Assembly: GCA_036557285.1 (NCBI GenBank)
Contig: DATBHW010000024.1
Coordinates: 1-43,445 of the forward strand
Direction of reading: 5' to 3'
From: Ktedonobacterales bacterium
Lineage (GTDB): Bacteria > Chloroflexota > Ktedonobacteria > Ktedonobacterales > DATBGS01
Length of the DNA stretch: 43,445 nt
Shown: piece after piece, positions 30,325-33,019 of the stretch
Layout of the letters: the number at the start of each line of letters is the position of its first letter
Position numbering within the stretch: the stretch's first letter is position 1
Notes under the pieces: model-generated
Databases searched by the model: none
Told to the model about the DNA's origin: nothing
What the model saw: only the letters and a program-made list of their open reading frames with translations
Program-made: the position numbers and the translations under genes

Positions 30325-31092
30325 ATGGCGCATTGGGCGGTGTTTCTGGATGATGGTGGGGTGATGAACGATAGTCGTTTACGTGGCCCGCAGTGGCGTC
30401 GGCTGGTGGCTGAGTTCTTTGCGCCCCGGCTTGGTGGGGCGCCCGAAGCCTGGGCAGAGGCCAACAGCGCATTTATGGATGCTCTACTTGAGCCGAATGC
30501 CTGGCGCGAGCGTCTCCAGTCGGCTCGTGACTATCAACATTTTGATAGGGCGTATCAGCTTGATTGGTTGAAGGGCATGTGCGCGCTGGTCGGCGTAGAG
30601 GCTCCGACTGATGATGAGTGCTATGAATTGGCTCTCCAGGCGGCAGCCCTCATCACCCGGCAGGTTCGTTCGGCGTTCCCAGGGGTGATAGAAGCGATTC
30701 GCGCGCTGCACCAGCGTGGCTATCCGTTACATACCGCTTCTGGCGAACCCTCTACCGATTTAGCGGGCTACCTGGAAGCGATGGGCGTGCGCGATTGCTT
30801 CCAGCGCCTCTATGGGCCGGACCTTATTAACACCTTCAAGAATGGTCCAGACTATTATGAGCGCCTCTTTGCGGATGCTGGCGTTGATCCTGGCGAAACG
30901 CTGGTGCTTGATGATAGCCCGCAGGCTGCTGCGTGGGCCAGGCGGGCTGGCGCGCACGCCATTCTGGTTGGGCAGGCATCTGCCGGGCAGGATGGTGTGG
31001 CCCACCACATCGCTAGCCTGGCTGAATTACCAGCGATCATTCAGGACATCGAAGATCATCCCTTGAATATATCCTCTTCGGACGCCTCATGA
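30325..31092 (+). CDS. HAD-superfamily hydrolase
   Basis: The 255-residue protein is a haloacid dehalogenase-like hydrolase with a helical cap. Motif I is FLDDGGVMND (D9), motif II TASGEPS near 140, motif III the Lys in FKNGPDYYERL, and motif IV ETLVLDDSPQAAAWA with two Asp for Mg. Motif I reads D-D-G-G-V rather than D-x-D-G-T/V: the acid/base Asp at +2 is replaced by Gly, which would weaken phosphatase activity. The Ser/Gly-rich motif II suggests sugar-phosphate or nucleotide-like phosphatase ancestry. AAGAGGAAAAA precedes the ATG. Its stop overlaps the start of the TGT-like gene (ATGA), so the two are translationally coupled. Confidence 0.88.
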   Translation: MAHWAVFLDDGGVMNDSRLRGPQWRRLVAEFFAPRLGGAPEAWAEANSAFMDALLEPNAWRERLQSARDYQHFDRAYQLDWLKGMCALVGVEAPTDDECYELALQAAALITRQVRSAFPGVIEAIRALHQRGYPLHTASGEPSTDLAGYLEAMGVRDCFQRLYGPDLINTFKNGPDYYERLFADAGVDPGETLVLDDSPQAAAWARRAGAHAILVGQASAGQDGVAHHIASLAELPAIIQDIEDHPLNISSSDAS

Positions 31093-32204
31093 ATTGTGTG
31101 AACACCTGTCTACGATTGCCGCATGGTGACGTGCGACTTCCGGCTTTTTTGCCGGACGCCACGCTCGGCGTGGTGCGCGGCGTTGACAGCATGGACCTGG
31201 AGAACTGCGGCATCGAGGCGCTGGTGATGAACAGCTTTCACCTGATGCAGCGTCCCGGCTCCTCGACGGTGCAGGCGCTGGGCGGCCTGCACCAGATGGC
31301 TGGGTGGCAGCGCCCGATTGTGACCGATTCGGGCGGCTTCCAGGCGTATTCCTTGATTCGGCAAAATCCCAAATATGGTTCGCTGAACGACAGGGGCATC
31401 ACCTTTCAGCCCGATGGGGCGGCGCGCAAGTTCCATTTTTCGCCGGAAAAGACCATCCAACTGCAACTCAGCTATGGGGCTGACGTGGTGATCTGCCTCG
31501 ATGACTGCACGCATGTAGATGACACCCTGGCGGAACAAGAGGTCTCGGTGCAGCGAACGATTGCCTGGGCCAGACGCTGCAAGCGCGAGTTTGAGCGCCG
31601 CGTCGCGCAAAAAGAGATGCCGCCAGCGCAGCGCCCGCTGCTGTTTGGCGTGATTCAGGGCGGCGGCTCGTTCGATCTGCGCAAACGCTGCGCCAGCGAA
31701 CTGCTGGAGATTGGCTTCGATGGCTTTGGCTTTGGCGGCTGGCCGCTGGACGACAAAGGCAATCTGCTCACTGAAATTATCGCCTATACCAGATCGCTTG
31801 TGCCGCCAGCACTGCCCATGCACGCGCTGGGTGTGGGGCATCCGGCCAATGTAGTCGAATGCTTCCGGCTGGGCTATGATCTCTTCGACAGCGCGATGCC
31901 CACGCGCGACGCCCGGCATGGGCGGCTGTATCGCTTTGAGGGCGAGGCGCTTTCTGCTGCTCAGCCGTTGGCGGGTAAGTGGTTTTCCTATATCTATATC
32001 AATGACGACCAGCACATGAAAAGCGATCAGCCCATCTCGTCGGTGTGTGATGGCCTCTGCTGTAGGCGCTATTCGCAGGGCTATCTGCGCCATCTGTTTA
32101 AGGTTGGCGACAGCCTTTTTATCCGGCTTGCCACCATCCACAACCTGAGCTTCATGGCTCAACTCATGAGGCGGCTGCAAACCCTAACGGCTCCAAACGC
32201 ATGA
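31089..32204 (+). CDS. tRNA-guanine transglycosylase-like protein with atypical pocket
   Basis: TGT swaps a guanine in RNA for a 7-deazaguanine base (preQ1 in bacteria, at anticodon position 34). The 371-residue protein covers the whole TGT barrel. Catalytic aspartates are kept: D80 in VTDSGGFQAYSL and D267 in LFDSAMPTRDARHG. D138 (LDDC) and Q190 (VIQGG) bind the base. Two features deviate. The pocket loop, usually GGLAVGE, is FGGWPLDD (215-222). The zinc motif, usually CxCxxC plus His, reads C320-D-G-L-C324-C325 with H351 kept, so the second Cys has moved. It could be the normal TGT of this lineage or a paralogue with another substrate. It overlaps both neighbours by four bases. Confidence 0.85.
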   Translation: MNCVNTCLRLPHGDVRLPAFLPDATLGVVRGVDSMDLENCGIEALVMNSFHLMQRPGSSTVQALGGLHQMAGWQRPIVTDSGGFQAYSLIRQNPKYGSLNDRGITFQPDGAARKFHFSPEKTIQLQLSYGADVVICLDDCTHVDDTLAEQEVSVQRTIAWARRCKREFERRVAQKEMPPAQRPLLFGVIQGGGSFDLRKRCASELLEIGFDGFGFGGWPLDDKGNLLTEIIAYTRSLVPPALPMHALGVGHPANVVECFRLGYDLFDSAMPTRDARHGRLYRFEGEALSAAQPLAGKWFSYIYINDDQHMKSDQPISSVCDGLCCRRYSQGYLRHLFKVGDSLFIRLATIHNLSFMAQLMRRLQTLTAPNA

Positions 32205-33019
32205 ACAAACTCCCCGACTCTCTAAGCCATCTGGACACGCTTACCCAGGCAGTGCTTACCAGCCCCAGGTATCGCAGCATCTGCCCGGAGGTGGTCCGCG
32301 ACATTGGGGCGTGCGAACTGACGAAACGACGGAATCTGCCCGAAGCGATCAAAGCCACCAAAGCGAAACTGCATCAAATTGGGGGAGCCTATCTTACCGG
32401 CAGGCAGTATGCGCAGTGGCTTGACGCGCTTACGCAGGCGTATCAGACGGGAGGAGAGCCATCGCTCAAAGATGCGTGCAGGCAGGTGATGGCTTATCAC
32501 TCGTCTACGCGGGAGCGCCTGCCCATCCTTGAGCGGTTCTATGTCAGCGCCTTGGCCGATCTGCCTCCAGCGCGGGTAGTGCTTGATCTGGCCTGTGGGC
32601 TGAATCCGCTTGCCGTCGCCTGGATGCCGCTGGCGGCGGACGTTGAATACCATGCCTATGATCTGTATCAGGATATGGCTGATTTTCTAAACGGCTTCCT
32701 GGCGCTGGCGCGTGTTCAGGGACACGCAGAAGCCCGCGATGTGCTGAGCCGCTGTCCCACTCAACACGCTGATCTGGCCTTGCTCTTGAAAGCACTGCCC
32801 TGCCTTGAGCAGTTGGACGCGCAGGCAGGTATCCGGCTGCTGGAAGGGGTCAACGCCGATCACCTGCTGGTTTCGTTTCCCGCGCAGAGCCTGGGCGGGA
32901 AGAAGAAGGGGATGGTTCAGCACTACGAGGCGCACTTTCGCCAACTGGTCGCGGGCAAGCCCTGGTCCATCAAGCGTCTGGAGTTCGCAACCGAAGTAGC
33001 GTTTCTTATCAGCAAGTAG
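32201..33019 (+). CDS. 16S rRNA m7G1405 methyltransferase homologue (ArmA/RmtB/FmrO family)
   Basis: Family members methylate N7 of G1405 in the 16S A site and give high resistance to 4,6-disubstituted aminoglycosides such as gentamicin and kanamycin. The 272-residue protein aligns over its whole length with RmtB/ArmA-type enzymes. It has the N-terminal helical recognition domain with YRSICPEVVRDI, AIKATKAKLHQIGGAY and HSSTRERLPILERFY (100-114). SAM motif I is VLDLACGLNPLAV (127-139). Then come DLALLLKALPCLE (191-203) and SFPAQSLGGKKKGM (225-238). All key stretches are intact, so it is probably active. No aminoglycoside biosynthesis genes and no mobile element are adjacent. It is coupled to the TGT-like gene by an ATGA overlap. 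Confidence 0.92.
   Translation: MNKLPDSLSHLDTLTQAVLTSPRYRSICPEVVRDIGACELTKRRNLPEAIKATKAKLHQIGGAYLTGRQYAQWLDALTQAYQTGGEPSLKDACRQVMAYHSSTRERLPILERFYVSALADLPPARVVLDLACGLNPLAVAWMPLAADVEYHAYDLYQDMADFLNGFLALARVQGHAEARDVLSRCPTQHADLALLLKALPCLEQLDAQAGIRLLEGVNADHLLVSFPAQSLGGKKKGMVQHYEAHFRQLVAGKPWSIKRLEFATEVAFLISK

Follow-up and report, generated by a model that had tools for sequence, protein, structure and literature searches.

What is a 16S rRNA methyltransferase of the ArmA/Rmt/Sgm family doing next to a tRNA-guanine transglycosylase paralogue in a Ktedonobacterales genome: is it a resistance gene, or part of an intrinsic system that modifies the ribosome? The window, by which we mean the whole stretch of 43,445 nt analysed here (contig DATBHW010000024.1 of assembly GCA_036557285.1), carries the two genes on the plus strand behind a HAD hydrolase gene, with the following features.

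30325..31092, plus strand: HAD-IA hydrolase, 255 aa (Pfam Hydrolase, 50.6 bits); local bystander, outside the conserved module.
31089..31092, plus strand: ATGA overlap of the HAD stop and the TGT2 start, read from the sequence.
31089..32204, plus strand: TGT2, paralogue of tRNA-guanine transglycosylase, 371 aa (Pfam TGT, 312.9 bits); module core.
31326..31328, plus strand: codon of D80, catalytic Asp (Z. mobilis D102), kept in 57/57 TGT2.
31740..31748, plus strand: codons of W218-P219-L220, the substituted base-pocket loop (Z. mobilis L231-A232-V233); W-P in 57/57 TGT2.
31887..31889, plus strand: codon of D267, the nucleophile (Z. mobilis D280), kept in 57/57 TGT2.
32046..32063, plus strand: zinc-site segment C320-D-G-L-C-C325 of TGT2, with Gly at the Z. 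mobilis C320 position.
32201..32204, plus strand: ATGA overlap of the TGT2 stop and the FmrO start, read from the sequence.
32201..33019, plus strand: FmrO/Rmt-type 16S rRNA (m7G1405) methyltransferase, 272 aa (Pfam FmrO, 223.2 bits); module core.

The three open reading frames and both overlaps proposed by the initial annotation were borne out by the sequence, and its family assignments by Pfam, each protein scoring over its cut-off. Its remark that no biosynthetic or mobile genes adjoin the locus is true of the neighbours checked, the downstream genes hisS, cysE and cysK being ordinary flanks. A promoter scan of the region returned no more sites than expected by chance.

We first consider the transglycosylase. 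Its description as atypical is well founded: it scores 299.8 bits against the tRNA-G34 TGT equivalog model TIGR00430 (cut-off 306.75), and a second, canonical TGT scoring 497 bits is encoded elsewhere in the same genome, as one is in nearly all genomes with TGT2. Three TGT2 proteins of other loci score slightly over or under the TIGR00430 cut-off, so that this value alone does not separate TGT2 from Tgt; in a tree, TGT2 splits from canonical TGTs as a separate clade (SH-aLRT 100). Identification as DpdA or as archaeal TgtA (ArcTGT) was ruled out by scores far under both NCBIfam cut-offs (17.9 vs 200 bits and 99.2 vs 350 bits, respectively). Among solved structures, tRNA TGTs are closest to the window protein, and its AlphaFold model (pLDDT 92.2) retrieved tRNA TGTs as the best 50 Foldseek matches in the PDB, with best TM-scores of 0.84–0.86. 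The hallmarks of the TGT superfamily (PF01702), namely the fold, the catalytic Asp pair and the zinc site, are present, with Gly at one of the four zinc-ligand positions in the window protein. Across 57 TGT2 sequences, residues D102, D156, Q203, G229, G230, D280, R286, R289, C318, C323 and H349 (Z. mobilis numbering) are invariant; position 320 is Cys in 53/57 and Gly in three, including the window protein, whose zinc segment has an additional Cys adjoining the last Cys ligand. Judged by these residues, TGT2 is an intact but altered TGT that keeps all catalytic residues.

The alterations include the base-pocket loop. At loop positions 231–232, Trp-Pro is found in 57/57 TGT2, whose position 233 is L, I or F, whereas 30/30 canonical Chloroflexota TGTs have L/V followed by S/A. 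Glu235 is present in 2/57 TGT2 versus 30/30 canonical TGTs, and the L231-A/S232-V233 plus Glu235 combination that marks the tRNA-TGT pocket is thus missing from TGT2. Val45 is replaced by Asp and Lys52 by Arg in 56/57. In a second collection, built around named FmrO loci, a simple pattern search found W-P in 60/63 TGT2, and a 37-row alignment made from these shows no variation at either residue. Asp267 is kept in 30/30 canonical TGTs and in 0/57 TGT2, so recognition has probably changed; the tRNA G34 enzyme needs UGU in the anticodon loop as a minimum (PMC10103133).

We next consider the methyltransferase. The window protein, METHYLTRANSFERASE, matches Pfam FmrO over its whole length, far over the cut-off of 27 bits, falls under the cut-off of the NCBIfam general model 16S_rRNA_Rmt_gen (228.5 vs 250 bits), and has Sgm (3lcu) as its closest solved structure (E = 9.5e-49). 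It keeps 20/20 of the positions that are invariant in Sgm, ArmA, RmtB, RmtC, RmtF and RmtG. Nearly all of these are also kept in FmrO copies adjacent to TGT2, and fewer in second or unlinked copies. FmrO very probably makes m7G at 16S G1405. The phylogeny with known enzymes that the initial annotation had called for gave a mixed answer: three well-supported groups hold most of the Chloroflexota copies (one with TGT2 upstream, one with TGT2 downstream and one of second copies), and the known resistance enzymes lie apart from them; support for the deepest split is low (22), however, and a single Chloroflexota sequence is placed among the resistance enzymes. Whether the clinical resistance genes descend from Chloroflexota FmrO is neither shown nor excluded by the tree.

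How general is the arrangement? FmrO was found in 77/400 Chloroflexota genomes. With a TGT2 profile at a strict cut-off, TGT2 was found in 69/400, all among the 77 with FmrO, and in 0/323 genomes without FmrO (Fisher 5e-69 over the 400 genomes, kinship ignored). In 57 of the 77 loci fetched from these genomes, the two genes follow one another directly on the same strand, mostly overlapping or a few bases apart, with TGT2 preceding FmrO in 47 and following it in 10; six more of the 77 loci contain both. Several genomes keep both genes well apart (e.g., G041, G094, G198, G230 and G371). Of the eight FmrO genomes missed by the profile, three (G301, G204 and G053) carry all or part of TGT2 at the FmrO locus, one (G220) has a short TGT fragment elsewhere, in two (G274 and G107) FmrO sits at the edge of a contig, and two (G176 and G381) have FmrO with a canonical TGT alone. 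Among 80 named FmrO loci, a set that partly overlaps the 77 and is not independent of it, TGT2 lies within ~6 kb in 67–68, including loci of Dictyobacter, Tengunoibacter, Ktedonosporobacter, Ktedonospora, Ornatilinea and Longilinea. No TGT2-FmrO fusion proteins were found when these were looked for. The survey centres on Chloroflexota; within the phylum, TGT2-FmrO is a real module kept across many families. The functional link between transglycosylase and methyltransferase that had been proposed is supported by both the co-occurrence and the adjacency. Its asymmetry, with TGT2 never found without FmrO and FmrO sometimes found without TGT2 (G176 and G381), is what would be expected if TGT2 acts after FmrO.

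The hydrolase gene does not share in this conservation. A HAD homologue was found in 0/80 named FmrO loci, and in the loci fetched from sampled genomes the only match was the window's own copy. Its closest relative among near kin (53%, Dictyobacter vulcani) lies on a different contig from the TGT2 of that genome. HAD as a functional partner was thus ruled out for want of conservation beside the pair in other loci; it is a bystander. Of the three-gene order put forward by the initial annotation, the TGT2-FmrO part stands and the HAD part, absent from the other loci examined, does not, and the idea of a three-gene functional unit falls with it.

The same distribution bears on ordinary explanations of FmrO, in which the methyltransferase provides self-protection for an aminoglycoside cluster or was acquired as a resistance gene, and stands beside its neighbours by chance. 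Membership in the family of Sgm, FmrO, ArmA and Rmt speaks for such a role. It fits poorly with a gene that is widespread in Chloroflexota, has a fixed partner and no biosynthetic genes among its checked neighbours, and lies largely apart from known resistance enzymes in the tree, if across a weakly supported deep split. We consider it very improbable, and the self-protection that the initial annotation had kept as an option was not upheld.

The neighbours of the pair point to the decoding site. RsmI methylates 16S C1402 on the 2'-O, RsmF acts on C1407 and RsmE makes m3U1498. RsmI (TIGR00096, above cut-off) occurs in 24/77 loci from 11 family-level groups, mostly directly adjoining TGT2-FmrO, and in 25/80 named loci. 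An RsmF-type protein then follows on the same strand in 8/77 loci and 12/80 named loci; its best model is the m5C1407 enzyme RsmF, at 280 bits, under that model's cut-off. A weaker RsmF homologue (26–30%) on the opposite strand in seven more named loci was excluded from this count. RsmE is present in 9/77 and 7/80 named loci; a queuosine-precursor transporter, scoring over the TIGR00697 cut-off, is present in 7/77 and 5/80. Same-strand arrays include transporter-RsmI-TGT2-FmrO-FmrO-RsmF (L118), transporter-RsmI-TGT2-FmrO (L126) and RsmI-TGT2-FmrO-FmrO-RsmE (L160). It is chiefly Anaerolineae-type loci that contain RsmF, RsmE and the transporter. In 20 neighbourhoods of canonical TGTs from the same genomes (mostly ~17 kb each), none of RsmI, FmrO, RsmF, RsmE or the transporter was found. 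In helix 44, positions C1402, G1405, C1407 and U1498 are mutually close, and the action of RsmF and RsmI is disturbed by known G1405 enzymes (PMC12406665); the grouping of a native G1405 methyltransferase with RsmI and RsmF makes sense for these reasons. A sequence signature of TGT2 in 16S rRNA was also considered and dropped, since the decoding region is identical in genomes with and without TGT2; the window's own assembly gave no 16S match.

Based on these results, we favour a reading in which the pair belongs to an intrinsic 16S decoding-site (helix 44) modification module of Chloroflexota with an rRNA-directed TGT paralogue, and put its probability at roughly 55%. Gene context makes rRNA the most likely target of TGT2. 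The view of the initial annotation that this is an intrinsic rRNA-modification module and a chromosomal relative of ArmA, Rmt and Sgm gains from the many Chloroflexota families, the 20/20 invariant positions and the decoding-site gene neighbours. The clustering may nevertheless reflect a common translation theme rather than a common target. In the main rival reading, TGT2 would be a second tRNA transglycosylase with a different tRNA, position or base as its target, in a general decoding-fidelity operon that co-expresses tRNA and 16S modifications. tRNA is the substrate of known TGTs with this fold, the fold and best structural matches of TGT2 are those of tRNA TGTs, and arginines R286 and R289 are invariant. 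Yet nearly all TGT2 genomes already have a canonical TGT, whose neighbourhood lacks the cluster genes, TGT2 strictly tracks a 16S methyltransferase, and the loss of Asp267 suggests altered recognition. We regard a tRNA substrate as a serious possibility, though on balance doubtful.

Under the rRNA-directed reading, what might TGT2 do? In the scheme that we infer from the genes, families, residues, co-occurrence and context described above, and which extends to the substrate of TGT2, its position, the incoming base and the order of steps, FmrO would write m7G at 16S G1405; TGT2, a predicted active transglycosylase, would work on 16S rRNA in the same region and not on tRNA, which the separate canonical TGT would serve. 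TGT2 might then exchange the N7-methylated guanine left by FmrO for another base, probably a salvaged 7-deazaguanine, with guanine also possible. The structure of the pocket offers a rationale. Proline carries no amide hydrogen; since Pro occupies position 232 and Glu235 is gone, the guanine-reading state should be lost in TGT2. The Z. mobilis enzyme has a 231/232 peptide that flips between two orientations: in one, the 232 amide faces the pocket and touches guanine N7 via water; in the other, with preQ1 bound, it is the 231 carbonyl that faces the pocket. Glu235 supports both states (PMC3660597). If locked in the carbonyl-out state, the TGT2 pocket would be suited to 7-substituted guanine. 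Free 7-methylguanine is a known competitive TGT inhibitor and therefore fits TGT pockets (PMC9299380). With N7-methylguanine as the FmrO product and a pocket that would suit 7-substituted guanines, our hypothesis is that m7G1405 is the base exchanged. A two-step modification by TGT and methyltransferase, as first suggested for this locus, thus appears plausible, with the Trp-Pro loop as its rationale at the level of the pocket. The full proposal, that TGT2 is the first rRNA transglycosylase, taking out the m7G1405 made by FmrO and inserting a 7-deazaguanine-type base in the decoding centre, is tentative, with a probability that we judge to be rather low.

The genes for supply of 7-deazaguanine vary. 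Clear QueC matches, which indicate de novo synthesis, were confined to Ktedonobacterales plus one other genome; QueA together with the queuosine-precursor transporter is present in several further lineages; and in Chloroflexaceae-type genomes (as we take G118 and G238 to be; G166 is presumably Roseiflexus-like) QueC, QueA and the transporter were not detected, so a 7-deazaguanine is not assured as the incoming base everywhere. A second QueA homologue in several Ktedonobacterales was rejected as a step following TGT2, being neither beside the module nor present in other TGT2 genomes. Genomes in which QueC, QueA and the transporter were not detected would suit an eraser, which would convert m7G1405 back to plain guanine as a reversible rRNA mark or a guard against mis-methylation: it needs no 7-deazaguanine and fits the strict dependence of TGT2 on FmrO. 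However, with Trp-Pro in the loop the amide that senses guanine N7 is lost, which should disfavour guanine (PMC3660597), and some lineages have the precursor transporter in the cluster; an eraser is, in our estimate, quite unlikely. Still less weight is given to action on free nucleosides or nucleotides, such as m7G salvage from rRNA turnover. The binding of 7-methylguanine to TGTs as an inhibitor would be in keeping with it (PMC9299380), but TGT2 has retained R286, R289 and the greater part of the zinc site, and the cluster contains modification enzymes and no recognized nucleotide-salvage enzyme.

If the rRNA-directed reading is true, base replacement would be a new rRNA modification chemistry, located where the ribosome is functionally most sensitive. 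The family behind high-level clinical aminoglycoside resistance would also have a native, non-resistance role, and Chloroflexota would be a candidate setting in which G1405 methyltransferases are housekeeping enzymes. Cultured isolates carry the TGT2-FmrO pair, which makes these ideas directly testable; those with TGT2 include Dictyobacter aurantiacus, Tengunoibacter tsumagoiensis, Ktedonosporobacter rubrisoli, Longilinea arvoryzae and Ornatilinea apprima. In the literature, mostly openly accessible papers, we found no TGT linked to an rRNA methyltransferase, no 7-deazaguanine in rRNA and no description of the TGT2-FmrO pair.

Comparison with known systems places both proteins in known families. 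TGT2 shares with bacterial Tgt (Z. mobilis 1ozm/1q2r, T. maritima 2ash) the fold (TM 0.84–0.86), the catalytic Asp pair, Gln203, Gly229-230 and most zinc ligands; it differs in its 30–35% identity, invariant W-P loop, loss of Glu235 and Asp267, V45D and K52R changes, separate clade, linkage to 16S methyltransferases and co-occurrence with canonical Tgt. The window FmrO is homologous over its whole length to the G1405 N7-methyltransferases Sgm, ArmA, RmtB-H and FmrO, with the 20 invariant positions of six enzymes, whereas FmrO of the window type is chromosomal, widespread in a phylum, coupled to TGT2, grouped with Chloroflexota copies and under the curated general-model cut-off. RsmI, RsmF and RsmE work on the same stretch of 16S rRNA and are themselves housekeeping enzymes; we know of no report of their grouping with a TGT or a G1405 methyltransferase. 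DpdA and ArcTGT belong to the same superfamily as TGT2, which scores far under their models. They act on DNA and on G15 of tRNA, respectively, and show that enzymes of the TGT fold can switch to a different nucleic acid. To our knowledge, every TGT characterized so far has tRNA or DNA as its substrate; an rRNA substrate for TGT2, if confirmed, would make its reaction one of a new kind.

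The tRNA-guanine transglycosylase paralogue of the window, TGT2, has an altered zinc-site segment with an extra cysteine, C324, adjacent to its last Cys ligand.

32052-32054, + strand: Gly in place of the middle zinc-ligand Cys of TGT2

C324 might substitute for the missing ligand.

A second paralogue of the adjoining gene for FmrO, a probable 16S rRNA m7G1405 methyltransferase, was found in loci L069, L071-L074, L076, L077, L112, L118, L128, L129, L160, L168, L172, L173, L176, L188 and L190. Where two copies are present, the second frequently follows the first in tandem. The second paralogue forms its own clade in the FmrO tree, and G237, M238 and Y242 (window numbering) are frequently changed in second or unlinked copies; because of these changes, it may target another guanine. 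In L069, L071-L074 and L077, a paralogue of RsmI, the 16S C1402 methyltransferase, is encoded immediately before TGT2, and a second RsmI gene, a few kb away, adjoins the queuosine-precursor transporter gene.

Canonical TGT is retained in genomes G118, G238 and G166, where genome searches found neither QueC nor QueA and the transporter match was absent or weak, a combination that suggests salvage via some other route. Some Ktedonobacterales (L273, L274, L275 and L276) carry a second QueA homologue, scoring ~255-305 bits and preceded by a short-chain dehydrogenase gene in 3 of the 4 loci.

L273, 7795-8856: second QueA homologue in the window's own genome

Loci in which FmrO is accompanied by TGT2, or by a fragment of it, also occur in MAGs labelled Njordarchaeum (L120), Poribacteria (L127), Armatimonadetes (L134) and Chthonomonadaceae (L183). 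Given their identities to the nearest Chloroflexota copies (53-58% for FmrO in all four; 66-71% for TGT2 in L127, L134 and L183), these loci may stem from either transfer or mis-binning.
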